DNA from: Anaerolineaceae bacterium
GTDB taxonomy: Bacteria; Chloroflexota; Anaerolineae; Anaerolineales; Anaerolineaceae
Length of the DNA: 64,000 bases
Direction of reading: 5' to 3'
Assembly: GCA_029265815.1 (NCBI GenBank)
Contig: JAJUGU010000001.1
Coordinates: forward strand, 1 to 64,000
The notes under the pieces were generated by a model. The model did no database searches, was not told the origin of the DNA, and was given only the letters and a program-made list of their open reading frames with translations. Positions 25,116-43,008 of this stretch are shown one piece after another. A program made the translations under genes and the position numbers. How positions within the stretch are numbered: the stretch's first letter is position 1; each line of letters begins with the position of its first letter.

Positions 25116-26480
25116 TTATTCATTCTCTTCGAGAATATCGTCTTCTGTTTCATCAAATGCTGGTGCCGATGATTGATATTGGCTGAAGCGTGCCATTAAT
25201 CTTCCAGGAATCAACCCCTGAATAAATACGCCCTTGCGAGAATGTTCGATACGGATGACCTGACCTTGTTCATGAAACAGCGAGATCAATTGGCCATCGG
25301 TATAAGGGATCTGGACCGATATTTCTGAGTAATTTTCATATAGCTCTGTTTCAATTGCCTGAAGCAATTCCGGTAAGCCACTGCCATTCAATGCAGAAAT
25401 TCCGACTGCTTTAGGAAAACCGCTTAATAACTCATTGGCAATTTCTGGTTGTGGAAGACGGTCGATCTTGTTTAACGCAACTACCATAGGAATGTGTTCT
25501 GCTTTAATCTCTTTAAGGGTATCCTCAACGGACCGGGCTTGTTCCAACGCATTGGGGTGGGTGATATCCACGACATGGATGAGGAGATCCGCTTCGCTAA
25601 TCTCTTCAAGAGTGGCTTGAAATGCTGCGATTAACTGGGTAGGAAGTTTTTGAATAAACCCGACTGTATCAGTTATCAACGCCTGGTGACCTCCTGGTAG
25701 TTCTATTCGTCGTGTGGTGGGGTCAAGAGTGGCGAATAATTGATCTGCTACCAAGACATCTGAATGAGCCAGGCGATTAAGCAACGTTGATTTGCCGGCA
25801 TTCGTATAGCCAACAATTGAAATTAATGGGATTCGAGATCGTTTACGCTGTGATCTGTAGCGTTGACGATGGGCACGCACCTTTTCCAGCTCTTTTTTTA
25901 GAAACGAGATCCGTTTCCGAATCTCCCGGCGGTCAACCTCGAGCTGTGTCTCACCGGGACCTCGTAAACCGACACCACCCACAGAACCCGTGCGACCACC
26001 TCCGCCACCTGCCTGGCGGGCAAGGTGAGTCCAGGCACGAGTCAAGCGGGGAAGGCGATATTCATATTGTGCCAGTGATACTTGAAGAATACCTTCGCTT
26101 GAATGCGCATGCTGGGCGAAAATATCAAGAATTAATGCGGTCCGATCGATCACCCGTAAATGAGAACCGAATCGTTCCTCGAGTTCGCGTTGGTGGCGTG
26201 GAGACAGCTCGATGTCGAAGATGATGATATCTGCCATCGTTTCTTCGGCCAACATGGCTATTTCCTCCACTTTCCCCGATCCAATAAAAGTGGCAGGATT
26301 TGGTGTATCTAGTTTTTGCGTTGTTTCTCCCACGATTTCGAGATTGGCCGTCTCAGCCAAGCGCACCAATTCGCCCAGAGAATCTTCGAGCGATATAAGG
26401 GGTGTTTCACTACGAATTTCAACCCCTACAAGAAATGCCTTTTCTCGGGGAGAAGATGTGGGGAGAGGCGGCTTTGACAT
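25116..26480 (-). CDS. hflX: GTPase HflX
   Basis: GGGGGRTGSVGGVGLRGPGETQLEVDRR, GYTNAGKSTLLN, DTVGFIQKLP. Confidence 0.95.
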   Translation of the reverse strand: MSKPPLPTSSPREKAFLVGVEIRSETPLISLEDSLGELVRLAETANLEIVGETTQKLDTPNPATFIGSGKVEEIAMLAEETMADIIIFDIELSPRHQRELEERFGSHLRVIDRTALILDIFAQHAHSSEGILQVSLAQYEYRLPRLTRAWTHLARQAGGGGGRTGSVGGVGLRGPGETQLEVDRREIRKRISFLKKELEKVRAHRQRYRSQRKRSRIPLISIVGYTNAGKSTLLNRLAHSDVLVADQLFATLDPTTRRIELPGGHQALITDTVGFIQKLPTQLIAAFQATLEEISEADLLIHVVDITHPNALEQARSVEDTLKEIKAEHIPMVVALNKIDRLPQPEIANELLSGFPKAVGISALNGSGLPELLQAIETELYENYSEISVQIPYTDGQLISLFHEQGQVIRIEHSRKGVFIQGLIPGRLMARFSQYQSSAPAFDETEDDILEENE

Positions 26481-27748: not shown

Positions 27749-28636
27749 TTATTTTTTCAGCCAGGTGAGTAAAGTCATGCCAATAACTTCCAGACTGCGC
27801 TCTGACACTTTGTCTGGGGTATCTTCACTGGTATGCCAGTATTCATACTCAATATCAATAATATCGATTGCCGGAATTCCAGCGTCGATGAAGGGCAAAT
27901 GATCATCGAGAATCGAATACTTGTTTTCATTGATAAATACATCAGAAAACCCTAAATCAGCAGCTGTCTCCCAAATTTCATCGGTAAGTGATGGGTTTGA
28001 TGCGATCTCACGATAAATATTGAGATCAGCATCTCCAATCATATCGATTACCACCACCGCATCAGGTTTGCCCTCCAGCGCTTGAACGAACGCACGCGAA
28101 CCCAGAATCCAATCCCAGTCTGGTAAATGTCCCTGGTCTTCAGCATCGAAAAATACCAACCAAATTTCCTTATTGATATCCTGTGGAATCACTCTGGCAA
28201 GTTCTAAAAGGACAGCCACTCCTGAGGCTCCATCATTGGCACCATCAACTGGCTGGGCTGCTTTGATTGGATCTGTGTCTTCATCAGCATAGAACCTGCT
28301 GTCGTAATGTGCCCCAAGAATCACCCATTCAGATCCTGTTCCCCGGCGGGCGATGATATTGCGGATAGGATGTCCCATCATTTCAGTGTTTTGGATTTCG
28401 ACCTGCCAGCCAGATTTTTTCAACTCTCTTGAAGCATAGTTTATGAATTCTTCCTGAGATGATGATCCTGGTGTGCGAGGACCAAAATCGATCTGAGTTA
28501 GGACGTGCTGATAAGCACGCTGTGCATCGAAAGACGATTCTTGCCTGGTTTTATGCAGGGAAAGCCTTAACAGGAATAATGCTACCGCCGAAATTAGAAC
28601 GATCGGAATTATGATAATCAGCCATTTACATTTCAT
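27749..28636 (-). CDS. M28-family zinc peptidase with N-terminal TM/signal segment
   Basis: GAHYDSR, GANDGASGVAVLLELAR, DAEDQG. Confidence 0.85.
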   Translation of the reverse strand: MKCKWLIIIIPIVLISAVALFLLRLSLHKTRQESSFDAQRAYQHVLTQIDFGPRTPGSSSQEEFINYASRELKKSGWQVEIQNTEMMGHPIRNIIARRGTGSEWVILGAHYDSRFYADEDTDPIKAAQPVDGANDGASGVAVLLELARVIPQDINKEIWLVFFDAEDQGHLPDWDWILGSRAFVQALEGKPDAVVVIDMIGDADLNIYREIASNPSLTDEIWETAADLGFSDVFINENKYSILDDHLPFIDAGIPAIDIIDIEYEYWHTSEDTPDKVSERSLEVIGMTLLTWLKK

Positions 28637-29994
28637 ACCAGGTCACCATTTAAATGATTTTCTGAAATGAAATTTCGTAGAGACCTCAGCGCTCGTTTTG
28701 AATAGGCAAACCCTTTGTCTTTTCTGGATTGTGGTCGATGTTCCAAAGGGGGAAGCAAGCCGAAAATGGCTTTCATTGGTTGAAAATGTTCAATATCTGC
28801 ACTCGAAATATATTGATGCAGTGCCCCAATCATCGTGTCTGCTGGAAAGGTTAGCGGCTCATCACCCCTTAAAACTCGAGACGCGTTTATTCCCGCTATC
28901 AAACCTGAAGCGATGTTCCCGGTATATCCCTCAATGCCTGCAACTTGACCAGCAAAGAAGAGGTCATTCCGATTTTTATACTGTAGTGTCGGAAGTAAAA
29001 ATTTAGGTGATGCAATAAAAGTGTTGCGATGCATCTGGCCAAAGCGCATAAATTCTGCGTGTGCCAGTGCGGGAATCATGCGAAACACGCGTTCTTGTTC
29101 AGCAAACTTGAGATTCGTTTGAAAACCCACCAGGTTATAAAGGGTGTTTGCGAGATTATCCTGACGCAATTGAAGGACTGCATAAGGGTGACTGTTGTCA
29201 TTTGGATTGCGCAATCCAACCGGGCGTAATGGACCATAAGTCAAAGCTTTTGGATCCCTGGCAGCCAGAACTTCAATAGGGAGGCAGGCTTCGAAATACC
29301 GTTTCCTTCCCGCATTCACTCCCTCACGAACATTTGAATCAATTTTTCTCATTTCAATTTGCTCAGCATTTAAGAGTTCATTGAGAAAATCGAAGTATTG
29401 CGATTCGGTTAACGGGCAATTTAAATAATCACCTTCTGACCCATTATCCTGTTCATAACGCGAACCGCGAAAGGCCTTTGATAAATCAATGCTTTCGAGG
29501 GTAACGATGGGTGCTATGGCATCATAGAAAAAAACGAATTCTTCTCCGAGGAAATGAGAGATTTCTAAAGAGAGACTCGCTGATGTAAGGGGGCCTGTGG
29601 AAATAATGACAGGGGATTCGGGAATTTTTTTTATTTCCTGTCGAATGATAGTAATGTTTGGATGGTTGCTCAGTCTTTCAGTGACCATGGCTGAAAACCT
29701 TTCTCGGTCAACAGCCAGGGCTTTTCCGGCTGGCAGCGCATTTTCTTCAGCGCACTGAATGACGAATGAATTCAATAACTGCAGTTCGTGTTTGAGTAAA
29801 CCAGCGGGAGTGTTCCTTTGCACTGCACCCAAAGAATTGGAGCAAACAAGTTCAGCAAGATCACCAGTTGTATGAACCTCTGTTGAAACCCCGGGGCGCA
29901 TTTCGTATAGAGACACTTTTAACCCTCGATGAGCAGCCTGCCATGCAGCTTCACACCCGGCTAATCCTCCACCAACAACGATTAAGTCTGTCAT
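28633..29994 (-). CDS. trmFO: Methylenetetrahydrofolate-tRNA-(uracil-5-)-methyltransferase
   Basis: VVGGGLAGCEAAWQAA, LVCSNSLGA, FFAGQVAGIEGYTGNIASGLIAG. Confidence 0.95.
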   Translation of the reverse strand: MTDLIVVGGGLAGCEAAWQAAHRGLKVSLYEMRPGVSTEVHTTGDLAELVCSNSLGAVQRNTPAGLLKHELQLLNSFVIQCAEENALPAGKALAVDRERFSAMVTERLSNHPNITIIRQEIKKIPESPVIISTGPLTSASLSLEISHFLGEEFVFFYDAIAPIVTLESIDLSKAFRGSRYEQDNGSEGDYLNCPLTESQYFDFLNELLNAEQIEMRKIDSNVREGVNAGRKRYFEACLPIEVLAARDPKALTYGPLRPVGLRNPNDNSHPYAVLQLRQDNLANTLYNLVGFQTNLKFAEQERVFRMIPALAHAEFMRFGQMHRNTFIASPKFLLPTLQYKNRNDLFFAGQVAGIEGYTGNIASGLIAGINASRVLRGDEPLTFPADTMIGALHQYISSADIEHFQPMKAIFGLLPPLEHRPQSRKDKGFAYSKRALRSLRNFISENHLNGDLV

Positions 29995-30035
29995 TGCCAC
30001 CTCTTCTGTATTCTATCATTTTCTATGAAATGAGC

Positions 30036-30051
30036 TGGCATAAAACTTGCA
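30036..30051 (+). promoter_or_regulatory. Sigma-54 (-24/-12) promoter upstream of rpoN
   Basis: TGGCATAAAACTTGCA, consensus TGGCAY-N5-TTGCA with correct spacing. Confidence 0.85.
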
Positions 30052-30096
30052 CTAAAAATGAATATCCGCTATACTCATTTCAATAAGAGGCAGCCC

Positions 30097-31506
30097 ATGT
30101 TTCAAGTCCAACGTCAATCTATCCGTCCACTTACCACAGCCCACCTCGCGCAAACGATGACTTTATTATCGCTAACTGCAGATGAACTGAAGCAAGAAAT
30201 CGATTCGGAATTGGCTTCAAACCCGGCTCTGGAAATGGTTGAAGAAAGGCGTTGTCCAACCTGTCACAGGCTGCTCACTGAACCAGGAAAATGCCCGATT
30301 TGTAGTTTACCTTCCAATATTGAATCAGACGAACCGGTAGTATTCCTTTCTCCGCGTGAAGAATTCATTCCCCAGAAGGATTATATTGATACTGAAATTG
30401 ACGATGAGCCGTTTGCCCCCGCAACTGAAGATCTGCCTACCTACGTTCTGAGGCAAATCGCACCAGATTTAAAACCAGAACAGCGCGGATTAGCGGCATT
30501 TCTACTCACTCATCTCGATGAAGATGGCTTGTTGACGACAAGTTTAATGGATGTGGCCCGATATACCCATGTAGCACTCTCAGAAGTGGAGAAGGTTCAA
30601 CATATCATTCAGCTTGCTGATCCGATTGGCGTTGGATCGTGCACTACAACAGATGCCTTGCTTGTGCAATTGCGCGTTTTGGCAGATGCTGGAGAAATTC
30701 CCGAACTTGCAGAGACCCTTGTCATGGAATGCATGGATCAATTAAGTCATCACCAATATTCTGATTTGGCCCACCGTTATAACGTTCCCGTACGGAAGGT
30801 GAGCGAGGCAGCAAAATTTATTGCAGAAAACTTAAATCCTTTTCCTGCCAGATCTCATTGGGGAGATATCCGCCAGCCTGCAGATGAACAAATCCAGGTA
30901 TATCACCAACCAGATATCCTTATCAGTTACTTAAATGATGATCCAACCCGACCACTTGTGGTGGAAATTATTATGCCTATTAGTGGAACTTTACAGGTGA
31001 ATCCATTGTTTAAACAGGCTATCCGCCAGGCAAGTGAAGATGCAAAGCCAGATTTGAAGCAAGACCTTGAAAAAGCCTCGCTTTTTGTCAAGTGTCTGCA
31101 GCAGCGAAATCACACTATGGAAAGATTACTCATGCGCGTTGTGGGAATGCAAAGGGATTATATAATCAAGGGAGAAAAATACATAAAACCTGTCACCCGA
31201 GCACAACTTTCACGTGAACTGGAGGTACATGAATCCACCATTTCACGAGCGGTGGCTAACAAGGCAGTCCAATTGCCAAACAAGCGGATTGTTCCGCTCT
31301 CGTCATTTTTTGACAGGAGCTTGAATATCCGTAGCGAGTTGAAAGAGATCATTGAAAAAGAAGTCAAACCTTACAGCGATTCCGATTTAGTAGAAATTTT
31401 GGGGCAGCGGGGATACGATGTTGCCCGCCGTACGGTAGCGAAATATCGAGCCATTGAGGGAATCCTGCCTGCGCATTTGAGAAAGGTAACCACAAAAGTC
31501 ACATGA
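30097..31506 (+). CDS. rpoN: RNA polymerase sigma-54 factor with inserted Cys4 zinc-ribbon-like segment
   Basis: RpoN box VARRTVAKYR, HTH (LSRELEVHESTISRAVANKAVQLPNK), region I LAQTMTLLSLTADELKQEIDSELASNPALEM, then CPTCHRLLTEPGKCPIC. Confidence 0.93.
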   Translation: MFQVQRQSIRPLTTAHLAQTMTLLSLTADELKQEIDSELASNPALEMVEERRCPTCHRLLTEPGKCPICSLPSNIESDEPVVFLSPREEFIPQKDYIDTEIDDEPFAPATEDLPTYVLRQIAPDLKPEQRGLAAFLLTHLDEDGLLTTSLMDVARYTHVALSEVEKVQHIIQLADPIGVGSCTTTDALLVQLRVLADAGEIPELAETLVMECMDQLSHHQYSDLAHRYNVPVRKVSEAAKFIAENLNPFPARSHWGDIRQPADEQIQVYHQPDILISYLNDDPTRPLVVEIIMPISGTLQVNPLFKQAIRQASEDAKPDLKQDLEKASLFVKCLQQRNHTMERLLMRVVGMQRDYIIKGEKYIKPVTRAQLSRELEVHESTISRAVANKAVQLPNKRIVPLSSFFDRSLNIRSELKEIIEKEVKPYSDSDLVEILGQRGYDVARRTVAKYRAIEGILPAHLRKVTTKVT

Positions 31507-33443
31507 GATCGATCACTGAACGGATCACGGATTCGTTAAAGGCAAAGAAAGAACCCGGATTTAACGAAATATTCACCCTGCTCAATTTTGAAGAACTGCC
31601 AACAGCTCTAGTGGATAATACCTCACGGAGCTTGTTGTTTATTAACAGCAGATTGATGAAGATCGTTTCGTATACAAATCAGGATTTAGCACATAAACCA
31701 ATACAAATTCTCTTTCCTGACCTTGATCTTTCGACTGTTTCTACCGGGGAAATCCGGAAAGTTAAGGTCAACCGGCGGGAAAAAACTGCGGTTGAGTACA
31801 AATTACGCTTCGAGTTCATTGATCAGGCTGCCCAATGGATCGTAATCAATTTCTTACCTGAAAAACCGCCAGAAGTTGAAAATAAACAGATTATCCCTGA
31901 TCTATTGATTAAGCTGCGTCAATTTAGCCAACTATCCGATGAATCTAGTCTGCCAATGGCTTTGCAGCAAAGCACCCTTCTGGCGAAGACCATTCTGGGT
32001 TGCGATTACGTTTGCCTTTATCAGGCCGAATCCGATTATCCGCGCCTGCGGATGATCGCAGCCAGCTGTAAGGATGGAAGATTTGCTGAAACATTACCTT
32101 CTACAGATCTAATGCGGCTGGATAAGCCGTATATATGGCTGAAAGAAAATCGCGTACTGACAGAAATTCACCGATCTGCGCGCGAAAACCAGGTGGATTA
32201 CCTGGCGTCAGCACCACTGATTCAAGGCGGTGGAGCGTTTGGTCTGTTTGTGGCTGCAGGGAGAGGTGAACCTCCAGCGAAACTAGGAATTGATCTGCTG
32301 GAATTGCTGGCAGCAATGACCCTTTCCCTTTTCCAGCAGAATTTATTGGCTGAAAACTTGACCAGAAAGATCGAACAAACGCAGGATTTTGCAGATCTGC
32401 GCAATACCGCATTCGAAAATATGAACGAAGGTGCTGTGATTCTGGATAACGATTTTGTCATTACTGAGATCAATCAGGCTGTGGAGTGGATGTTAGGGTA
32501 TTCTGCACAAGAAGTCAGAGGCCAAATTTTTGATAACATTCTCATTGGCACTGACCGCTTATTGCCGGCTTTGATTGAAGCGCAGGAAGGAAAAACCACG
32601 AATGATATTGGTAAGGCCTCTTTGCATCGCAGGAACGGGCAGGCCTTTCCTGTAAAGATCAAGGTCATTCCTGTCTTGTCAGGTGAAGTAACACGATCAA
32701 TTATGGTGTTATTAACTGATATCAGCGAACACGAACAAAGTAAAGCGGTCACCCAACAACTTGAACACCGGGCGATTCTGGGTGATTATACAGCGGCTTT
32801 TGCTCATGACGTGCGCAATCCCATTAATAACATCTCAACGGGTCTCCAATTGTTAGCTGCGGTTTTGCCAGAAAACGATCCGAACATTGATGTAATCAAC
32901 CGCATGCAAGGAGATTGTACGCGGCTTAATCACCTGATGGAAGCCTTCCTTGCTTTCTCACGACCGCTTGAGTTAAAATTTGAATCCTTTGGAGTGGAAC
33001 AATTCCTCAAGCGTATCCTTGATCGCTGGCAACCGCGGATGGCACGTGTAAACGTAAAATCCACCTTATTCATCGATCCAAAGGTTGTTAATATTACCGG
33101 CGATCCTCGTTCACTTGAGAATGTGTTCACAAATCTGATTTCAAATGCTGTGGAAGCAATGACAGATAGTGGTGATACTCTGGCTGTCAAAGCAGTGATG
33201 AGCACTGAACTTGATGGCAGACCTGCGGTAGAGATCAGTATCTCTGATAATGGACCTGGTATCCCGCAAGACATCCAGGAGCACATCTTTGAGCCATTTG
33301 TTACCACGCGCAAGGCTGGGACCGGACTGGGATTGGCCATCACCAAGCAGATTGTCACTGCTCATAAAGGAAGTATTCGGGTAAACTCATTCCCTGGTGG
33401 AACTGTATTTACCGTAAAAATCCCTGCAGAAGGCGGAGAATAA
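31503..33443 (+). CDS. Soluble PAS-GAF-PAS sensor histidine kinase
   Basis: H-box FAHDVRNPINNISTGL, N-box NLISNAVEAM, GPGIPQDIQEHIFEPFVTTRKAGTGLGLAI; ATGA overlap with rpoN; no obvious TM segment. Confidence 0.92.
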   Translation: MRSITERITDSLKAKKEPGFNEIFTLLNFEELPTALVDNTSRSLLFINSRLMKIVSYTNQDLAHKPIQILFPDLDLSTVSTGEIRKVKVNRREKTAVEYKLRFEFIDQAAQWIVINFLPEKPPEVENKQIIPDLLIKLRQFSQLSDESSLPMALQQSTLLAKTILGCDYVCLYQAESDYPRLRMIAASCKDGRFAETLPSTDLMRLDKPYIWLKENRVLTEIHRSARENQVDYLASAPLIQGGGAFGLFVAAGRGEPPAKLGIDLLELLAAMTLSLFQQNLLAENLTRKIEQTQDFADLRNTAFENMNEGAVILDNDFVITEINQAVEWMLGYSAQEVRGQIFDNILIGTDRLLPALIEAQEGKTTNDIGKASLHRRNGQAFPVKIKVIPVLSGEVTRSIMVLLTDISEHEQSKAVTQQLEHRAILGDYTAAFAHDVRNPINNISTGLQLLAAVLPENDPNIDVINRMQGDCTRLNHLMEAFLAFSRPLELKFESFGVEQFLKRILDRWQPRMARVNVKSTLFIDPKVVNITGDPRSLENVFTNLISNAVEAMTDSGDTLAVKAVMSTELDGRPAVEISISDNGPGIPQDIQEHIFEPFVTTRKAGTGLGLAITKQIVTAHKGSIRVNSFPGGTVFTVKIPAEGGE

Positions 33444-33446
33444 TCA

Positions 33447-34619
33447 ATGAGCATTTCAGTATTAATTGTTGATGATGAAGATAATGCACGAGTAAACATT
33501 GGCGGGTATCTCGAAAAAAAAGGATATGAAGTTTTGGGAGCCGCAACAATGGATGAGGCGCGTGAGAAAATCCGCAAGGGAGAGGGAGATGTAGTTCTTT
33601 TAGACGTTCAATTGGGTGGGGAATATGGACCAAATCTTTTGTACGAGACTGCATCCATGCAAAATCGCCCACCATTCATTATTATGACCGGTTTTGGGGA
33701 TGTAGAAACCGCAGTGGATGCGATGAAAAATGGTGCGGTAGATTTCCTGCAGAAACCAATAAATTTTGTGCAGCTTGAAAAATCGTTAAAACACGCGAGT
33801 GAAATTGTTGCAATGCGGCGGGAATTGGATCACTACCGTGAAACGCAGATGGATAAGAGCAATTTTGTGGTGGGTGAAAATGAAATTGTCAAGACTTCCA
33901 TACGACAGTCTTTGGTGGCTTCAGAGAAACAGGTATCGGTATTAATCACTGGTGAAACGGGTACTGGCAAGGATGTGATCGCCAAGTATATTCATGCCAG
34001 CGGCCCGCGAGCGAATAAACCATTTATTTCGATTAACTGTGCAGCCATACAAAGTACAATGCTAGAATCTGAATTATTTGGGCATGAGGCAGGGGCATTC
34101 ACCAGTGCTGACCGGAAAAAGGCTGGTTTAATGGAAATTGCTGATGGTGGAGTGCTCTTCTTAAACGAAATTTCTTCCATGCCACTGGATATCCAGGCGA
34201 AATTGCTCACTGCCATTGAGACGCATTCTTTCAGACGAGTTGGCGGGACTGCATTGATCCACGTTGATGTTCAGGTTCTGGCGGCTTCTAACCGAAATTT
34301 AAAAGAAATGATTAAAAAAGGTGAATTTCGCGAAGACCTGTATTATCGCTTGAAGGTAGTCGACCTTGATTTGCCGCCCCTTCGCGAGCGCAAAGAAGAT
34401 ATTCCTGAATTGGTAGGTTTTTTTATCAGGCAGAACAACGCGCGGCAGGGAATGAACGTGGTAAATGTTTCGAACCAGGCCATGCAGGCATTGCAGAACT
34501 ATTCGTGGCCAGGGAACATCCGCGAATTATCGAACGCAATTGAGCGCGCCATGCTTTTCTGTGATGGTGAAACGATCAATCTGGCAGATTTGCCTAAAGA
34601 TATCACCACTCCTGATTAA
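33447..34619 (+). CDS. NtrC-family response regulator/sigma-54 activator lacking a C-terminal DNA-binding domain
   Basis: Receiver (VLIVDDEDNARVNI, VVLLDVQ), AAA+ Walker A GETGTGKD, GAFTSA loop, FREDLYYRL; ORF stops at NLADLPKDITTPD. Confidence 0.93.
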   Translation: MSISVLIVDDEDNARVNIGGYLEKKGYEVLGAATMDEAREKIRKGEGDVVLLDVQLGGEYGPNLLYETASMQNRPPFIIMTGFGDVETAVDAMKNGAVDFLQKPINFVQLEKSLKHASEIVAMRRELDHYRETQMDKSNFVVGENEIVKTSIRQSLVASEKQVSVLITGETGTGKDVIAKYIHASGPRANKPFISINCAAIQSTMLESELFGHEAGAFTSADRKKAGLMEIADGGVLFLNEISSMPLDIQAKLLTAIETHSFRRVGGTALIHVDVQVLAASNRNLKEMIKKGEFREDLYYRLKVVDLDLPPLRERKEDIPELVGFFIRQNNARQGMNVVNVSNQAMQALQNYSWPGNIRELSNAIERAMLFCDGETINLADLPKDITTPD

Positions 34620-34627
34620 CTAGCGCT

Positions 34628-34643
34628 TGGCATAATACTTGCA
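34628..34643 (+). promoter_or_regulatory. Sigma-54 (-24/-12) promoter upstream of the TPR/peptidase operon
   Basis: TGGCATAATACTTGCA; 15/16 identical to 30036-30051. Confidence 0.87.
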
Positions 34644-34678
34644 TCATGCCCTCTAGAGATCAAATTCTGGAGGGCAAA

Positions 34679-35002
34679 ATGTTTTCAATGACTGTAAATG
34701 ATTTTCTGCTGACGATGGCTTGCGCGCTTCTCTTTTGTGGGGTGGTCATTCTTGGGGTGGGGATTTATACATTGATTGGCAAATTGATGGGCAAAGAGTT
34801 AACCACCATAGCAAACCAGACTGCCAAATTAGCTGAGAAGGGGATTACAGATGAAATTTCTGGTTTAGTCGGCAATGCGCGTACCTTAATCGAAGTTCTC
34901 AATAATATGGTGAAAACCACAGCCGGTATTGGCATCTTCCTGGTCTTAATCGGATTTTCGCTATTTGGTGGAGCATACGCGCTGGTTCTACAAATCCGAT
35001 AA
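34679..35002 (+). CDS. Small membrane protein with two TM segments
   Basis: GGAGGG RBS before ATG 34679; hydrophobic segments FLLTMACALLFCGVVILGVGIYTLI and TAGIGIFLVLIGFSLFGGAYALVL. Confidence 0.75.
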   Translation: MFSMTVNDFLLTMACALLFCGVVILGVGIYTLIGKLMGKELTTIANQTAKLAEKGITDEISGLVGNARTLIEVLNNMVKTTAGIGIFLVLIGFSLFGGAYALVLQIR

Positions 35003-35048
35003 CTCATTACAACCCTCATTACTAGGGTACCCGAGAGGAGAATCCGCT

Positions 35049-38000
35049 ATGCAGTTCACTGATCAAATTTCTGTGGTGAACCACCTGACCTCACTTGATG
35101 AGGTGGCGGTTTATTTTAAAGCATTGCGTCAGGATGAAATTATCTGGAAAGAAGTTCAACGATTTCTTGCCGATCCATCCAGAGTGGAATATCTTGCTGC
35201 TCAGGAAAGGCCTCTTGATGCAGGGGTTCTGTGTTTGCTCTCTATCGATCCCGAAATTGATCTTTCGCGTTACCCTATTGCCTCGTTTTCAGGGCAAACG
35301 CTAGAACAAATCATGTTTGCCTATGAATCGTATATCCAATCTAACGAACCTGTAATTGATTTTGCACACGCAGCTTTGCTTGCTGCTGCTCTGATTGAAA
35401 AACGAAAAATTACTACTCAATGGAAGAATGTAATCCTAGAAATCATTTCCAGAATGAAAATCAGCACTTCTGAAAGATTCTCACAATTCTGGGGAACTGC
35501 TTTCGCTATCATTGCTAATCTAGTTGAAAAACGAGATGAATTACTGGCAGATTTACTTAGTCTGCAGCAACAAGATTTAGGTTTGAAAGTATTTATGCAT
35601 GCAGTGCAGTGCTTGCCTTTGAACGAGGAACAAAAAATTGAGTTGTTCTACAGTCACTTGAAATCAGTTAATACCGCGAATCAGTCTCAAGCTCTCCGAT
35701 TGTTATCGTTAACATCTGATCCGGAGTTTATCCGGCAGGTTGCCCTACGTTTGCTGAGTAAGTCTTTACAAATTGAGACGAACGGACAGACTTACGATAT
35801 TTATTGGAAAAATCCTGCATCATCACTGCAATTTGCGCTGCAATGCCAGTATGCGGCTGACATTGCTCATTATGCTGGTGAAAAGCAAATCGCAGCGAAG
35901 TTAATTGATAAATCAATGGAAATCCTGGCAGCCTTTGAATCAATTGGAAAGATGAAAAAGGTTGATTTATTCCAAGAATCAACAAGTATTCGTGATGTGT
36001 TTGACGAATCTGAACTAGAGCATCCGGAAATTACCTCCGAACTTGTCTACAGTCCATTATGGGGCGAAGTAGAAATTTCTTCTGATCAGGCAATTTTTCC
36101 TGTGAAAATTATTCGTCAATTGGATGAGATTTCTCACGCTGGAAATTCAGAATTTGCCAATGTTGAACTCATCACAGTAATCAATGCACTCTCTGACTGC
36201 GATCTTGAAGAATTATTTGTCAAAGGTCCAAAATTCATTCAGACATGGGATGTAGTGGAAGTCTTAGATAACTTGGCAAACTCGAATGCCAATCAGGAAG
36301 CAAAAAGATTGGCTGAAGTAATATTACGGAAAAATCCGTTCAATGTGAGAGCGAATCTTTCTGCGGCTAAAGTATTGGAAAAGATCGGTGCTTGGGCAGA
36401 AGCGCTGACGCACTGGCAAACACTGGCAATACTGAATCCGGCATCAGACGATGTCAAACGGAATCTGGGGAAGGCGTACATAAAAACTGGAGACAAAGCG
36501 GAAGCGTTTAAGGTTATGAAAGATTTAATCTCAAGAGAAGAACCTGAATGTGAATCCGATCTACTCGATTTAGCAAACCTTGCTCTTGATCTTGACCGGC
36601 CTGACGATACCATAAGCGCAGTAGAAAAAATCTTGGAACAGAACCCAGATCATTCCTGTGCGCTTACTTTGGCTGGTTTAGCACACCATCAAAAAGATGA
36701 GATCGATCTGGCTGTTGAAAAACTCCAGAAAGCCATTGAAACACCTGGAAATGATCCACGAGCATGGATCATTCTCAGCGAAATCAATAACAAGATTGGC
36801 AATAAAGAAGCTGCTTTAAATGTTTTGAAAGAAGGCCTTGCGGTAAATCCTGACCAAAGATCGATCAAAATTGCTTATGCAAAAAACCTGGTACAGAGAG
36901 GTTCAACTACTGAGGCATATCCTCTATTAAGAGAACTTTCCGCGGCCAGCGTTGATTATGAGATTGATACCCTGCTCATTGATGTTATGAAACAGCTAGG
37001 GAAAGAAGACCTTTGTCTGGTGATCGAGGAATTGAAAGGACGCTATCCTGAAGATCCTCGCATTCTTGCGGATTATGGCGAGAATCTGGTCGCTAATGGG
37101 AAGCTTGCAGAAGGTTTAAGCGTTTTAAGGCAGATCAAGTCTGATCTTAAGACCAATTCTGCATGGTCGATGGCATATGTTGCCGCGCTGTTGGGTATTG
37201 ATTACTCGAAATTTCAATCTGAACGCAATATTTCAGTAAAAGATATCAACGAAGCAAAGAGTATGATCGACCAGGTAATCAGTGTTGAACCAGATCAATC
37301 TAAAGCAATCATGCTAAAAGGTGAATTGCTTGCCAGTAATCATCAGCATGAAGCAGCAGTAAAATTGTTTACCCAGGTCTTAGAATCAAAGAACATGCTT
37401 GAAGATGGCTGGTTGGCCAGATTGCATGCAGACCTTACCCGGTCTACTGCTGCACTTGGCAAATCAGAAATTGCGCTTGCCTCAATAGAAGAAGCGATTG
37501 GTCTTCAACCTGACTGGATTGGATTACACCAGTTGAAGACTGACGTGATGCTTTCAGGTGGTGATGTTTCTCAAGCAGAGTCGCAATTTAAACATGTTTT
37601 AGAAATCACACCTGATTCTCATGAAAAATCACTCTGGGCAGCCAAGATATGGCAAAAAATGGGGAATTCAGAAAGGGCCGCTACAATCTTGAAGGATGCA
37701 ATCATAAGAGACCCCGCTCATCTAGATCTGCAATTGATGGCTGCAGAAATGCAACTGGATAAAGCTGCTGAGACTATCATTGGGGATCTTGTGCAGTCCA
37801 TGAAAACATTGGTTATGGAATCATCAGAACCAACTGAATTGATCCATAGTGCCGCACTATTCGTAAAGATGGGAAAAACAGAAGAGGCTATTCTTGCATT
37901 AACCCGTGCATGTGAATTAGGTAGTTGGGAAGCCAGTCTAAACCTGTGCGGATACTATCGTTTGCAAAATGAAAACGAAAAGGCTGGCGAAGTCATTGAC

Positions 38001-40364
38001 CAAATCGAAAAATTAGGCGACGACCCTTCGATCTTTAAGGCTGAGATCGAATCTGTGAATGGAAATATCGAAAAAGCATATGAAATTCTGAAAAATGCTT
38101 CTGATACGCCTATCAATATAGTATTTGAGCCCGTGTTTTTACCGGAGGAATGGAGCAGCTTTGTTAATTCTACCAGACCAGTAACCGCGTTATGGTTGAT
38201 GTTTGGTTTACAAAGCGGTATACATCACGATTCGATGAGTAAGGCTAGGAACTGGATCGAGGCCGAACCACAGAATCTTGAAGCGCGCGTATTTGGGATT
38301 GAAACAGCACTTGCCTGTGGTGCGTTTGAAGATTACGACTGTTTCTTAAATATGGCTGGCTTAACTGAGGCCGATCCATTTTTCCATAACCTCGAATTAT
38401 TGCGTATTGAACGCGAGCAGGATCAAAAAATCTTTGCGCTTTCTGCTGAGAAATTTGATGGTAATGAAATCGCTGATGTGGTAAACCGCCCAGAAGTAAT
38501 TACCAGGGTAAGAGCGCTGGCAGCTGAAGGTCAGCTTCTAGATGCTGAGATTTTGCTTGAGCAAATTGTTTCTGGTTTCGCCAGATCAAACAAAGCACCA
38601 TACATTTGCCGAATCGGACTGTTGCGCAATGCTATCAAAGCTGGGTTGGCGGTCAACAGGTGGAAAGAAGCCGTGAATCTCTATAGGCAGTATGGTAAAG
38701 AGATGGAAGGTAACAATGGAATGAAATCCTTGTTCCTTGAGACTCTGGTTACAGCGATTGAGTTCTTCAATTCTGTGCAGGGATTATCAATAGAGACTCA
38801 TCTCCCCTGGAATGCTTTATTTGTGGCAACATTAGAGGATGAAATTACAAGATTATCAGAATCGTTGGCGGATGATAAGGTAAGCGCTGCGAGGCGTTGG
38901 ACACTACGCGGGAATCTTGCGCTCAATCCATCGCAGGAAAATATCAGAGCACTGGCGTTGATCACTCCGCAGGCAGATGATGCTGCTGCAATTATGGCAG
39001 GATTACGAGCTACTGACCAGGTAAATACTGCCATTCAAGTTGTAAAAAAATTCAGCAATGACCCGCGCGTTCTTTTTGAGCTTGCACTTTGCTTCTATGA
39101 GAAAGACAGCGAAAAAGCGCTTGAGGCTCTCAAATCATCCCTGCAAATATCTCCCGATCAACCTGCTGCACTTTGTTTACTGAGTAAAGTACTCGAAAAC
39201 CTGGGTATGAAAACTGAATCACTGGAAAAGCTCGAAGAAGCGATCAGTCTATGGCCGAATGAAGCGCGTTGGCATATGAGAGCAGCTGAAATTCAGCATG
39301 CATTGGGTAATCTAGATGATCCGGTTAGACATCTGCAAGCAGCGCTTGAATTGACTCCAAACGACACTGAAATCATTTATCGTTTAGGTAAAGCATTCGC
39401 TCTCAATAAGAATCATCAAGCTGCATTGGAATACTTACAGTCTGCAGCCAGCAAGGCTCCCAACCGTGCTGAGATTTGGGAGGCAATCTCTGACGCATAC
39501 CAACAGGCTGGAAGTCTAAACCAGGCGTTGGAAGCTGCTGAAAAAGCCAGTAAAACTGATCCGTTTGCAGTGAAGCCTCATTTGCAAGCTGCAAGGGTGA
39601 ATTGGTACAGAGGAGAGCTTGAGAAAGCTCTTGAACAGGTGAAAATGGCAATCTCTCTCAATCCGGATAATGCAGAAGGCTATGTTTTCCTTGCGCAATT
39701 GCTACGCGAAAAAGGAGAGAATGGCAAGGCGCTTGAGACGCTCGAAAAGGCATCCCAATGCAAGACCATAAATGTGGGTACAATGATCGATCATGCTTCG
39801 CTTTTGAAGGAAATTAATGGAGCAGCTGCGGCTAGAGATCTGTTATCAAATTTCAGCCAACGCTTCCCGGAGAATCCAGAATTGTTAAAGATGCTGGCAC
39901 AAGCTGAAGAAGAATGTGGTGATCTAAGGCGGGCCGAAATCGCCGCAAAACGTGCTTTGGAATTTCATCCTGAGGCAACAGACTTGCACCTTTTCCTTGG
40001 AAGCATTGAGGAAAAAACAGGCAATCTTGACCAGGCAGCTCATTATTTTAGCCAGGCGATCGCCCATCATCCTGAAGAAACCGAGGGATACATAAAATTA
40101 AGCCACGCATTCGCTCAACAGCGTGAGTTTTCAAAAGCGCGTGAGGTATTGGAGGAAGGAATCAGACGTAGCCCGGGTGAAATCAACCTTTATCTCGCGT
40201 GTGCCAACCTGTTGAAAGACGCCAAGGATTATCGTGGCGCTGAACAAATGCTGCGCAAGGCTTCAGAGATCGATCCACGGAACTTGACCGTTCATAGGCA
40301 ACTTGGTGCGGTACTTGCACTGAATTTGGTACATCAATCGCAGGAAGTGAGCTCACACCTATGA
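35049..40364 (+). CDS. Giant tetratricopeptide-repeat protein (~1771 aa)
   Basis: Many TPR-like repeats (e.g. AALNVLKEGLAVNPDQRSIKIAYAKNLVQRG, ALEQVKMAISLNPDNAEGYVFLAQLLREKGENGKALETLEKA); RBS GAGAGGAGAA before ATG 35049. Confidence 0.9.
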   Translation: MQFTDQISVVNHLTSLDEVAVYFKALRQDEIIWKEVQRFLADPSRVEYLAAQERPLDAGVLCLLSIDPEIDLSRYPIASFSGQTLEQIMFAYESYIQSNEPVIDFAHAALLAAALIEKRKITTQWKNVILEIISRMKISTSERFSQFWGTAFAIIANLVEKRDELLADLLSLQQQDLGLKVFMHAVQCLPLNEEQKIELFYSHLKSVNTANQSQALRLLSLTSDPEFIRQVALRLLSKSLQIETNGQTYDIYWKNPASSLQFALQCQYAADIAHYAGEKQIAAKLIDKSMEILAAFESIGKMKKVDLFQESTSIRDVFDESELEHPEITSELVYSPLWGEVEISSDQAIFPVKIIRQLDEISHAGNSEFANVELITVINALSDCDLEELFVKGPKFIQTWDVVEVLDNLANSNANQEAKRLAEVILRKNPFNVRANLSAAKVLEKIGAWAEALTHWQTLAILNPASDDVKRNLGKAYIKTGDKAEAFKVMKDLISREEPECESDLLDLANLALDLDRPDDTISAVEKILEQNPDHSCALTLAGLAHHQKDEIDLAVEKLQKAIETPGNDPRAWIILSEINNKIGNKEAALNVLKEGLAVNPDQRSIKIAYAKNLVQRGSTTEAYPLLRELSAASVDYEIDTLLIDVMKQLGKEDLCLVIEELKGRYPEDPRILADYGENLVANGKLAEGLSVLRQIKSDLKTNSAWSMAYVAALLGIDYSKFQSERNISVKDINEAKSMIDQVISVEPDQSKAIMLKGELLASNHQHEAAVKLFTQVLESKNMLEDGWLARLHADLTRSTAALGKSEIALASIEEAIGLQPDWIGLHQLKTDVMLSGGDVSQAESQFKHVLEITPDSHEKSLWAAKIWQKMGNSERAATILKDAIIRDPAHLDLQLMAAEMQLDKAAETIIGDLVQSMKTLVMESSEPTELIHSAALFVKMGKTEEAILALTRACELGSWEASLNLCGYYRLQNENEKAGEVIDQIEKLGDDPSIFKAEIESVNGNIEKAYEILKNASDTPINIVFEPVFLPEEWSSFVNSTRPVTALWLMFGLQSGIHHDSMSKARNWIEAEPQNLEARVFGIETALACGAFEDYDCFLNMAGLTEADPFFHNLELLRIEREQDQKIFALSAEKFDGNEIADVVNRPEVITRVRALAAEGQLLDAEILLEQIVSGFARSNKAPYICRIGLLRNAIKAGLAVNRWKEAVNLYRQYGKEMEGNNGMKSLFLETLVTAIEFFNSVQGLSIETHLPWNALFVATLEDEITRLSESLADDKVSAARRWTLRGNLALNPSQENIRALALITPQADDAAAIMAGLRATDQVNTAIQVVKKFSNDPRVLFELALCFYEKDSEKALEALKSSLQISPDQPAALCLLSKVLENLGMKTESLEKLEEAISLWPNEARWHMRAAEIQHALGNLDDPVRHLQAALELTPNDTEIIYRLGKAFALNKNHQAALEYLQSAASKAPNRAEIWEAISDAYQQAGSLNQALEAAEKASKTDPFAVKPHLQAARVNWYRGELEKALEQVKMAISLNPDNAEGYVFLAQLLREKGENGKALETLEKASQCKTINVGTMIDHASLLKEINGAAAARDLLSNFSQRFPENPELLKMLAQAEEECGDLRRAEIAAKRALEFHPEATDLHLFLGSIEEKTGNLDQAAHYFSQAIAHHPEETEGYIKLSHAFAQQREFSKAREVLEEGIRRSPGEINLYLACANLLKDAKDYRGAEQMLRKASEIDPRNLTVHRQLGAVLALNLVHQSQEVSSHL

Positions 40365-42958
40365 TTTCACAATTCGGTCGTAAAGAAAACAATCCTCAAA
40401 CCATCAATCGGCAGAGATTACTATTCTTGCTGAACGCGGGGATGGATACAAAAGCATATCGGTTTACCAGACAGGCCGCTCTGGCCTGGTTAGCCTCATT
40501 TCCAGGAGATCTGGAGGTTAACCTGGCTTATGCAAGGGCATTATTGAAAGAAGAGCGTTACGCACATGCTTCTCCTGTGATTCAAAAAATCCTTCACACA
40601 GATCCAGAATTCGTTGAAGCAGCCATCTTGGGGGAAGAGATATTTGCCAGGAGCGATCCTGCGTTTCTCCCTTTCACAGCTGGAACGATCAAGGCTTTGG
40701 GAGGAACACCAGTAAATTCATTGGCATCTCCTGAATGGGGTGAAAAGCTTTTTCTGATTCGCCGCGCGATCGCTGGAGGGCATTACGAGGCTGCCCGGTT
40801 GCAAGTATTCGAGATTTTAGGTGAATCTGAACATGTTGAATTGATCAGCTATTACCATTTATTGGTTGCTGAGAAACTTGAAGATAAGACAAGTCTCGCA
40901 AACCTTGCGTTGCTGTATCACACTCGGTGGCCGGATTGCATTCAAATCAGCCTGATGCTGGCACGTATCTGGATGGATTCTGGCAGGGAAGATGATGCAG
41001 TGAATCTGCTGCATGCTTGTGCATCCAATGATCCAGTCGGGCAAGTACCTTCAAGGATGTGGGGAAAGGTTCATCCCTATCAGGCACTTTATCCGCAAGA
41101 AATGCAGATCAAGCTTGATCTTCCAATCCCCGCAGAAGTGGCCGGAAAGCTGGGGCTGAACCAGCTTGCTGCAGGTAAGCCCTCGGCAACCGGTTCTGTT
41201 GGGGGAAGGCATGTGAAAACAGATGTCACTTCTTTTGATGGGTACAAGGTAACTCCCACGGATAAAGCGTCTTATCCCGTGCACCCCAAGGTCACACCTG
41301 AGGTAAAGAAAAAGAAAAGCCCTGTTTCCACAGAAGTTGAACAGAAATTTAAGGAAATTGCCAGCAATCTTGGACAGGAAGTATTAAATCACACTGATGA
41401 ACGGTTCCCGGCATATGTGATCTTGAGCATGAAGAGTGGACTTCAAAATCAATTTGGAGAACAAAGCGCCAGTGTGATCATTGAAGAATTGTCAACACTG
41501 GCAAAGAATGTCCAGGAAAAAGCCGGTTGGACATCAATCGTTTTCTTGCCCGATGATCTTGCCATTTGCGGTAAGTACAATATAACCCCGGTTGATGCAC
41601 TCGACCCGTGGAAAATCAAACTGGCTTTAGTCGATCTCGACAAATCTCTCGAGAAAACCGGTGAGCGAATTGGAAGTGTACTTATCGTTGGCGGAGATGG
41701 TGTAGTTCCATTTCACAGGCTGCCGAATCCTACGGATGATTCTGATGCAGAGGTTCCGTCAGATAGCCCTTATGGCACATTGGATACGAATTACTTTGTT
41801 CCCGATTGGCCAGTCGGCCGCTTACCAGGAGAAGCTGGCGCAGATGCTGGTTTATTATTGGAACAGATTCGAAATATCAGTCTTTATCATTCTGATGAGC
41901 CGAGTTCTTCATCAATTATTGATGCGATTTTCAGAGTAATCTTCTTCTGGAACCAACCCTGGATACAAAATTTCACTAACATCGGTTATTCTGCGTCAGT
42001 ATGGCGGCGGTCTTCACTTGCTGCATTCAGACCTGTAGGAGAAGGTCGCAATTTATTCCTTTCACCAAATGGAAAAAACACATCCTTCAATCCAGGTAAA
42101 CTGGCATCAGCACAGATAGGATACTTTAATCTTCACGGTGTAGAAGATGGTAGTGAATGGTATGGGCAAAAAGATGTTACTGAAAATGATTCTGGCCCTG
42201 ATTTTCCTGTGGCTTTAAAACCTTCTGATATTCAATGTCTATCTGATCTTCCGCGTATTGTCTACTGCGAAGCTTGCTATGGCGGGCATGTTTTTGAAAA
42301 GCAAGAAGAAGAATCTATTGCCTTAACCATGCTCGGTAAGGGGGTCATGGCTATGGTTGGGTCGACGACGATTTCTTATGGCTCGGTTACAACTCCATTG
42401 ATCGGAGCAGATCTATTAGGGTACCTGATCCTCAAAAATTTGCGAGATGGTTTGCCAATTGGCACCTCAATGTTGAACGCCAGAGTGGAATTCGTTCGAG
42501 AGATGAATCGCAGGCAGGGGTACCTGGATGGAGAAGATCAAAAGACATTGATTTCATTTGTTCTGTATGGTGATCCGCTGGTAGCCTATGATCCTTACCA
42601 ATCTGCCAAAAAGGTGACGCCGCGCGACTTGTATCACCCGGTGGTGAAAACCATCAGTGACAGCCCGGTTTTAGATCAGCAAACAGAAAAGGCTGCGCCT
42701 AAGATGATCGCGCAGGCGAAGAATCTGGTGAAAGAATATCTGCCAGGGATCGAATACGCTGAAGTGCGAGTCAGGAATCAGCAGATAAACGGAGCAGTTT
42801 CTGGTAAATTTTCCAAGACAGCCAATCAAAATGCTTCTGGGCGAGTGGTGGTGAGTTTCAGCAAGCAGTTTACTCAGGCAGAAAAAATTCACCGGCAATA
42901 CGCCAGGGTCACTTTAGACAAAGAAGGAAAGATGGTCAAACTGGCAGTATCACGCTGA
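40361..42958 (+). CDS. C25 (gingipain)-like / caspase-fold cysteine peptidase with TPR-like N-terminus
   Basis: VLIVGGDGVVPFHRLPNP...YGTLDTNYFVPDWPVGRLPGE, candidate His in YFNLHGVEDG, candidate Cys in IVYCEACYGGHV, GKGVMAMVGSTTISYG, FVLYGDPLVAYDP; ATGA overlap with upstream TPR gene. Confidence 0.8.
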   Translation: MISQFGRKENNPQTINRQRLLFLLNAGMDTKAYRFTRQAALAWLASFPGDLEVNLAYARALLKEERYAHASPVIQKILHTDPEFVEAAILGEEIFARSDPAFLPFTAGTIKALGGTPVNSLASPEWGEKLFLIRRAIAGGHYEAARLQVFEILGESEHVELISYYHLLVAEKLEDKTSLANLALLYHTRWPDCIQISLMLARIWMDSGREDDAVNLLHACASNDPVGQVPSRMWGKVHPYQALYPQEMQIKLDLPIPAEVAGKLGLNQLAAGKPSATGSVGGRHVKTDVTSFDGYKVTPTDKASYPVHPKVTPEVKKKKSPVSTEVEQKFKEIASNLGQEVLNHTDERFPAYVILSMKSGLQNQFGEQSASVIIEELSTLAKNVQEKAGWTSIVFLPDDLAICGKYNITPVDALDPWKIKLALVDLDKSLEKTGERIGSVLIVGGDGVVPFHRLPNPTDDSDAEVPSDSPYGTLDTNYFVPDWPVGRLPGEAGADAGLLLEQIRNISLYHSDEPSSSSIIDAIFRVIFFWNQPWIQNFTNIGYSASVWRRSSLAAFRPVGEGRNLFLSPNGKNTSFNPGKLASAQIGYFNLHGVEDGSEWYGQKDVTENDSGPDFPVALKPSDIQCLSDLPRIVYCEACYGGHVFEKQEEESIALTMLGKGVMAMVGSTTISYGSVTTPLIGADLLGYLILKNLRDGLPIGTSMLNARVEFVREMNRRQGYLDGEDQKTLISFVLYGDPLVAYDPYQSAKKVTPRDLYHPVVKTISDSPVLDQQTEKAAPKMIAQAKNLVKEYLPGIEYAEVRVRNQQINGAVSGKFSKTANQNASGRVVVSFSKQFTQAEKIHRQYARVTLDKEGKMVKLAVSR

Positions 42959-42975
42959 GCAAAAATGTGCGCTTC

Positions 42976-43008
42976 GCCCGCGGAATTGGATTTCCGCGGG
43001 CTTTTTTA
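42976..43008 (+). terminator. Rho-independent terminator of the TPR/peptidase operon
   Basis: GCCCGCGGAA-ttggat-TTCCGCGGGC-TTTTTT. Confidence 0.92.

Follow-up and report, generated by a model that had tools for sequence, protein, structure and literature searches.

Here, we analysed a stretch of 64,000 nucleotides (hereafter the window; positions 1-64,000 of contig JAJUGU010000001.1) from the Anaerolineaceae bacterium assembly GCA_029265815.1. At positions 30036-43008, the window holds a locus of six genes on one strand, which code for the sigma factor RpoN (sigma-54), a histidine kinase, a sigma-54 activator, a small protein with two transmembrane segments (2TM), a giant tetratricopeptide repeat (TPR) protein and a C25-like cysteine peptidase, and which are followed by a terminator and then by alaS (Table 1). 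An initial annotation of this DNA had proposed the gene order, the shared strand and a TPR protein of about 1771 aa; open reading frames (ORFs) and Pfam assignments agree on all three, and the ATGA overlaps that it listed between rpoN and the kinase gene (31503-31506) and between the TPR and peptidase genes (40361-40364) are present, as is the terminator. Our literature searches found no description of an rpoN-kinase-activator-2TM-TPR-C25 locus. Comparison with relatives gives good support to the locus and its dedicated control by sigma-54. We consider it probable that the locus both controls a small, dedicated sigma-54 regulon in the Anaerolineales and is itself the main target, a judgement that includes the full mechanism proposed below.

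Table 1 Features of the locus and of two candidate co-regulated genes elsewhere in the same genome (contigs C3 and C2)
Feature	Position	Strand	Remarks
Predicted sigma-54 -24/-12 promoter of rpoN-kinase-activator	30036..30051	+	TGGCATAAAACTTGCA
Overlapping sigma-70-type promoter of rpoN	30047..30075	+	-35 TTGCAC (30047-30052), 17-bp spacer, -10 TATACT (30070-30075)
rpoN (sigma-54)	30097..31506	+	PF00309, PF04963, PF04552 above cut-off; longest ORF from 30058
Soluble histidine kinase	31503..33443	+	GAF (weak), PAS, HisKA, HATPase
Sigma-54 activator	33447..34619	+	receiver, AAA+ (GAFTSA), AAA lid; C-terminal helix-turn-helix absent
Predicted sigma-54 -24/-12 promoter of 2TM-TPR-C25 operon	34628..34643	+	TGGCATAATACTTGCA
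Hairpin over 2TM Shine-Dalgarno sequence	34647..34676	+	TGCCCTCTAGA / TCTGGAGGGCA; left arm at about -7 to +4 of predicted sigma-54 start
2TM protein, 107 aa	34679..35002	+	longest ORF from 34646
TPR protein, 1771 aa	35049..40364	+	TPR families (Pfam); start chosen by ribosome-binding site and reading
TPR and C25-like cysteine peptidase, 865 aa	40361..42958	+	His592/Cys639
Intrinsic terminator	42976..43008	+	GCCCGCGGAA-TTGGA-TTCCGCGGGC-TTTTTT
437-440-aa glycosidase-fold protein, own copy	C3:357122-358360		site TGGTACAAATCTTGCT at 357032
LysM lipoprotein, own copy	C2:278154-278810		

By its domains, RpoN is a sigma-54 factor: the activator-interacting, core-binding and DNA-binding domains all score above the Pfam cut-off, and the RpoN box ARRTVAKYR is essentially invariant among 33 homologues. 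A zinc-ribbon-like CxxC...CxxC insert lies between its activator-interacting and core-binding domains (window 30253-30303, residues 66-82 of the longest ORF), with each of the four cysteines invariant across these 33 sequences. Likewise, the H-box histidine of the kinase (His435) is invariant in 33/33 homologues. The activator scores 217.8 bits against PF00158 (Sigma54_activat) and has the AAA+ domain of a bacterial enhancer-binding protein, its GAFTSA loop reading GAFTGA or GAFTSA in most homologues. It stops after the AAA lid, homologues end at ~390 aa without a helix-turn-helix (HTH), and a Pfam scan of the window protein found no HTH, which sets it apart from the canonical NtrC type and places it with the type Ic activators. 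These make up ~4% of sigma-54 activators as a whole (PMC3162934) and include FlgR of Helicobacter pylori and CtcC of Chlamydia, both without a DNA-binding domain (PMC3162934, PMC7482065). Like FlgR and CtcC, the locus activator combines a receiver and an AAA+ domain without HTH and has few or no other activators beside it in the genome; unlike them, it belongs neither to flagella nor to chlamydial development and is encoded with rpoN and a kinase beside a TPR-peptidase operon. As a DNA-binding domain is absent, it probably works from solution. In its own genome (99.4% complete) it is the only PF00158 protein with a strong score; three further matches are weak (24-33 bits) and fall inside large proteins. 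Most relatives possess exactly one PF00158 activator, that of the locus (E 1e-30).

The -24/-12 sites before rpoN and before the 2TM gene are the only matches to TGGCACRNNNNTTGCW with at most one mismatch in the 64 kb, in line with the initial annotation, which had seen just two strong promoters of this type. Matches with two mismatches number 20 in the window versus 20.15 by chance, so the reality of the two sites rests on comparison. With a pass mark of 12.5 out of 14, which 4% of random windows reach, 32/33 rpoN upstream regions of relatives pass (28 with a perfect site), as do the 2TM upstream regions of 37/39 loci. All seven 2TM operons of this first set that are unlinked from rpoN retain a -24/-12 site of their own, and in a second, partly overlapping set of loci the 2TM site is found in 59/63. 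Most other genes of the operon are near background, with a raised value for C25 starts (12/38). One genome of the family (G031, locus L058), in which the 2TM gene lies 10 nt behind the activator gene, has lost TPR and also the -24/-12 site of 2TM. The longest ORFs of rpoN and 2TM begin with ATGs (30058 and 34646) at or 5' of the predicted sigma-54 transcription starts, and the homologous proteins start at positions matching Met14 and Met12 of these ORFs, respectively; the true starts are hence most likely 30097 and 34679.

The two promoters differ in their sigma-70 content. A -10 hexamer (5/6 or better, at 16-17 bp spacing) accompanies 26/33 rpoN promoters versus 2/37 2TM promoters, and the -12 box of rpoN doubles as a sigma-70 -35 box, which suggests that rpoN probably combines basal sigma-70 transcription with sigma-54 feedback, while the 2TM operon looks sigma-54-only by promoter content. 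Had the -12 box of rpoN been selected solely as a -35 box, with rpoN outside sigma-54 control, the TTGCAC that most relatives have 17 bp ahead of TATACT would be accounted for, but not the TGGCAY at -24 with fixed spacing in 32/33, including several loci without TATACT; we give this explanation very little credence.

Homologues of the peptidase were found in 90 of 101 relatives, of rpoN in 87 and of the activator in 84. Counting strong rpoN matches, 83 genomes hold both rpoN and peptidase, nine neither, seven the peptidase only and two rpoN only (Fisher p = 2.6e-7). Of the seven genomes with the peptidase only, three have an activator whose rpoN-facing side is near the end of the contig, and another three fall below 75% completeness. 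About 30 fetched genomes retain the gene order, as do most named genomes fetched separately, Longilinea, Bellilinea, Ornatilinea, Thermanaerothrix and Leptolinea included, so that the linkage on which the initial annotation had staked its proposal recurs across the Anaerolineaceae. Carriers in culture include Longilinea arvoryzae, Bellilinea caldifistulae and Thermanaerothrix daxensis. In several other families, 2TM-TPR-C25 lies apart from rpoN-kinase-activator and keeps its own -24/-12 site. Judging from these genomes, nearly every member of the family has the module, in contrast to defence genes with their sporadic occurrence. Phylum-wide, the peptidase profile matches 13/151 sampled genomes (the source genome and one of its family counted in). 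Three loci from other classes of the phylum (L261, L264, L265) hold 2TM-TPR-C25 operons that have no -24/-12 site and whose TPR protein is larger, at 2200-2549 aa.

The sigma-54 regulon is likely wider than the 2TM operon, with at least two more units outside the window suggested by conserved upstream sites. The third unit is the 437-440-aa protein, for which no Pfam family was found and whose gene is preceded by a -24/-12 site in 26/27 relatives. In the rpoN-less genome G032, the -12 GC of this site is lost; in G012, which is also without rpoN (assembly 84% complete), the site is still perfect. In several other families and classes, the same gene lies directly 3' of the peptidase gene, which supports a functional linkage independently of sigma-54. 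The fourth unit is the LysM lipoprotein with a site in 15/21 relatives, ~120-142 nt upstream in most of those that score. The proposal of a dedicated sigma-54 with its signalling pair is largely borne out: the single activator, the conserved order and promoters and the co-occurrence of rpoN with the peptidase speak for it, the two likely units elsewhere against exclusive dedication. Further -24/-12 sites precede orthologous genes in two genomes each (L131/L141, L138/L151, L115/L118 and L136/L170), and the genes behind them (an ftsZ-like gene, a small division-protein-like ORF and genes of a 168-177-aa protein and a 354-358-aa transmembrane protein) are possible regulon members at genus level. 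We discarded a conserved match ahead of a cell-wall amidase-like gene (own C21:91668), as the block in question, which the rpoN-less G012 has too, is an extended -10 sigma-70 promoter, TGCTATAAT. Amidase-like genes (L084-L096; own C21:91632-91690) share a conserved TGGCAC...TTGCTATAATTC, a sigma-70 mimic of the -24/-12 pattern that can mislead scans for sigma-54 sites.

As a rule, sigma-54 regulates globally and responds to many inputs, and its regulons are commonly broad. The TPR-peptidase operon could accordingly be one of many targets of an ordinary global network, its neighbourhood with rpoN being incidental, and the extra sites before orthologous genes in some genomes fit this idea. A single activator per genome in most relatives and the absence of rpoN together with the peptidase argue against it. 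Many unrelated sigma-54 promoters, which the initial annotation had named as one of two findings that would count against dedication, did not appear: the source genome has 9 exact -24/-12 matches versus 4 for reversed-pattern controls, most of the extra matches being intragenic and another a sigma-70 look-alike. The one-mismatch count (243 versus 116 in the control) is uninterpretable, as coding bias can inflate it. By exact-site counts, genomes with and without rpoN cannot be told apart; the counts per genome resemble those of the rpoN-less G071, which again argues against a broad network. We regard a global network as improbable and favour a small dedicated regulon.

Besides its promoter, the 2TM operon is preceded by a predicted hairpin, in which the Shine-Dalgarno (SD) sequence GGAGG pairs with a CCTCY located around -6 to +2 relative to the predicted sigma-54 start. 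The fold of the window's leader has z = -8.0. In the first set, 25/25 linked leaders of the family reach z -3.2 or lower versus 0/7 unlinked ones; in the second, z < -3 was obtained for 47/54 linked versus 1/9 unlinked loci. Comparison of 31 leaders, a sample selected for a visible hairpin, shows covariation: 89% of pair cells are kept versus 40-56% with partners slid, double-changed pair cells number 50 versus 20.7 +/- 3.0 after shuffling, and C-G to U-G changes are frequent, as expected of RNA. The element hence qualifies as a covarying SD hairpin; that transcription would begin inside it is predicted from the position of the -12 box. In some leaders, the stem extends to -11, just after the -12 C and outside any sigma-54-started RNA, so that the pairing must act on a longer RNA, for which read-through from rpoN-kinase-activator is the only obvious source. 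Across 59 distinct linked leaders, the predicted openness of the SD is 0.32 for sigma-54 RNA versus 0.10 for read-through RNA (p = 3e-8). A translational lock, with the read-through RNA untranslatable and the sigma-54 RNA translatable, is a strong hypothesis from these leader comparisons.

Alternatively, the inverted repeat might serve as an operator in the DNA, bound by a repressor, or as a stem that stabilises the 5' end of the mRNA. It does overlap the predicted start, where a repressor could act, and one unlinked genome retains the hairpin. Unlike a fixed operator, however, the stem varies in sequence with compensatory and U-G changes; stems to -11 cannot belong to sigma-54 RNA, the SD pairing is constant, and most unlinked operons have no hairpin. 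Both variants appear rather unlikely to us in comparison with a read-through lock. An Rfam search matched no family, and the literature searched contained no start-dependent hairpin over a ribosome-binding site at sigma-54 promoters. The logic of the 2TM leader matches that of T4 I-TevI, in which the ribosome-binding site is hidden in read-through RNA and free in RNA from a promoter inside the hairpin; the leader hairpins of T4 e and soc sequester the ribosome-binding site as well (PMC2988022). Unlike the T4 case, the 2TM leader belongs to a chromosomal bacterial gene with a sigma-54 promoter and is predicted from sequence.

As to the products of the operon, the 2TM protein is conserved beside TPR/C25 across the fetched loci and has no Pfam family above cut-off. 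In the peptidase, His592 and Cys639 are invariant among homologues. The C25-like label of the initial annotation is borne out by the homologues, 12/33 of which match PF01364 (Peptidase_C25; best 4e-15), and by the predicted structure of the window protein (predicted local distance difference test, pLDDT, 77), for which Foldseek gave gingipain K as best match (E 5e-9); the window protein itself has no C25 match. With its His/Cys dyad in a caspase-like fold, the protein classifies as C25-like, its proteolytic activity being predicted. The catalytic region alone gave no match against solved structures, and a profile search returned TPR-type proteins. Like gingipains, the peptidase shows a caspase-like fold, a His/Cys dyad and a C-terminal beta domain; unlike them, it carries an N-terminal TPR, has no evident signal peptide or secretion domain, stems from the Chloroflexota and lies, in the window copy, beyond the reach of Pfam. 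As neither peptidase nor TPR protein has an evident signal peptide by sequence reading, their putative complex probably resides in the cytoplasm, perhaps with the 2TM protein as its tether.

What could such a complex do? The initial annotation had suggested stress, defence or programmed death, and a sigma-54-run module of this kind is conceivable, in which the TPR protein, on sensing damage or phage, would set free the caspase-fold peptidase, the 2TM protein serving as the pore. The pairing of a TPR scaffold with a caspase-fold protease resembles TPR-CHAT/Craspase, and CHAT is weakly matched by 2/33 peptidase homologues. In Anaerolinea thermolimosa (L206:12699-13478), a Peptidase_C14 caspase-family gene directly adjoins the peptidase operon on the opposite strand, which may also be counted in favour of defence. 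Unlike TPR-CHAT, however, the peptidase is gingipain-like, CHAT is absent from the window protein, no CRISPR partner was seen among the neighbours examined, and the TPR lies mainly in a separate giant protein. Moreover, PADLOC returned no match for the peptidase or the 2TM protein (for the TPR protein only PDC-M71B and PrimPol models over the repeats), the module is not sporadic in the family, and the co-regulated genes are suggestive of the envelope. We consider defence or death a most improbable function and favour a role in the envelope or in exopolysaccharide metabolism, because the co-regulated genes code for a LysM lipoprotein and a glycosidase-fold protein. The model of the latter (pLDDT 86) has PslG, a glycosyl hydrolase of Pseudomonas aeruginosa (4zn2), as best fold match at ~11% identity. 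The catalytic motif reads NEPN/SEPN in two homologues from other classes and has become D(R/K)PN in 22/25 Anaerolineales copies, so that most of these PslG-like proteins, unlike PslG, are probably inactive, i.e. pseudo-glycosidases. A parallel from the envelope is PrsK/PrsR/PrsT of the PEP-CTERM/exosortase system (PMC1569441), in which a TPR protein and a sigma-54 two-component pair are likewise linked to an envelope system of cysteine-peptidase-like kind. Unlike in the Prs system, the locus kinase is soluble and the peptidase C25-like instead of an exosortase, while PrsR is NtrC-like with HTH; the locus proteins stay below the NCBIfam equivalog cut-offs of PrsK, PrsR and PrsT (81/300, 320/503 and 254/312 bits). 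The 5' neighbours of the locus, both on the minus strand, look like housekeeping genes (28633-30000, GidA-family, TrmFO-like; 25116-26480, HflX-like GTPase).

We thus propose the following mechanism. The sigma-70 promoter that overlaps the sigma-54 promoter of rpoN would provide basal expression of rpoN, kinase and activator. We infer that the cytoplasmic GAF/PAS kinase phosphorylates the activator, which would act on closed sigma-54 complexes, and all sigma-54 promoters would be switched on together: that of rpoN as feedback and those of 2TM-TPR-C25, of the glycosidase-fold protein and probably of the LysM lipoprotein. RNA reading through from rpoN-kinase-activator would remain silent as the hairpin hides the 2TM SD, while sigma-54 RNA, which would start within the hairpin and lack the anti-SD strand, would be translated. 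The products would then form a membrane-tethered TPR-peptidase machine, probably for remodelling of envelope or exopolysaccharides.

Several observations weigh against parts of this proposal. Other candidate sigma-54 targets exist in two genomes each, and the regulon list may be incomplete. Outside the order, 2TM-TPR-C25 operons lack the -24/-12 site, so the effector set seems wider than its sigma-54 control, which is not intrinsic to it. The envelope role is based on two co-regulated genes. As to the lock, the SD opens only partially in sigma-54 RNA by prediction, and the leaders behind the covariation were chosen for their hairpin. A. thermolimosa keeps the hairpin though its operon is unlinked, and L229 and L251 are without it though linked. 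Linkage is confounded with family, linked operons of other families being mostly without hairpin in the first set, and relatives are non-independent samples.

On balance, we find it rather likely that the whole order uses sigma-54, with one HTH-less activator, for the nearly single purpose of switching on a new TPR/gingipain-like peptidase machine, and that a start-dependent translational lock secures the strict dependence of this machine on sigma-54. An order that employs sigma-54 essentially for one system and with one activator would offer a compact natural model of sigma-54 logic. If true, the overlapping sigma-70/sigma-54 promoter and the start-dependent hairpin would guard a peptidase system against leaky expression at two levels. 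For the Anaerolineaceae, common anaerobes of digesters and sediments, the locus points towards an undescribed, family-wide peptidase system, direct tests of which are now within reach.

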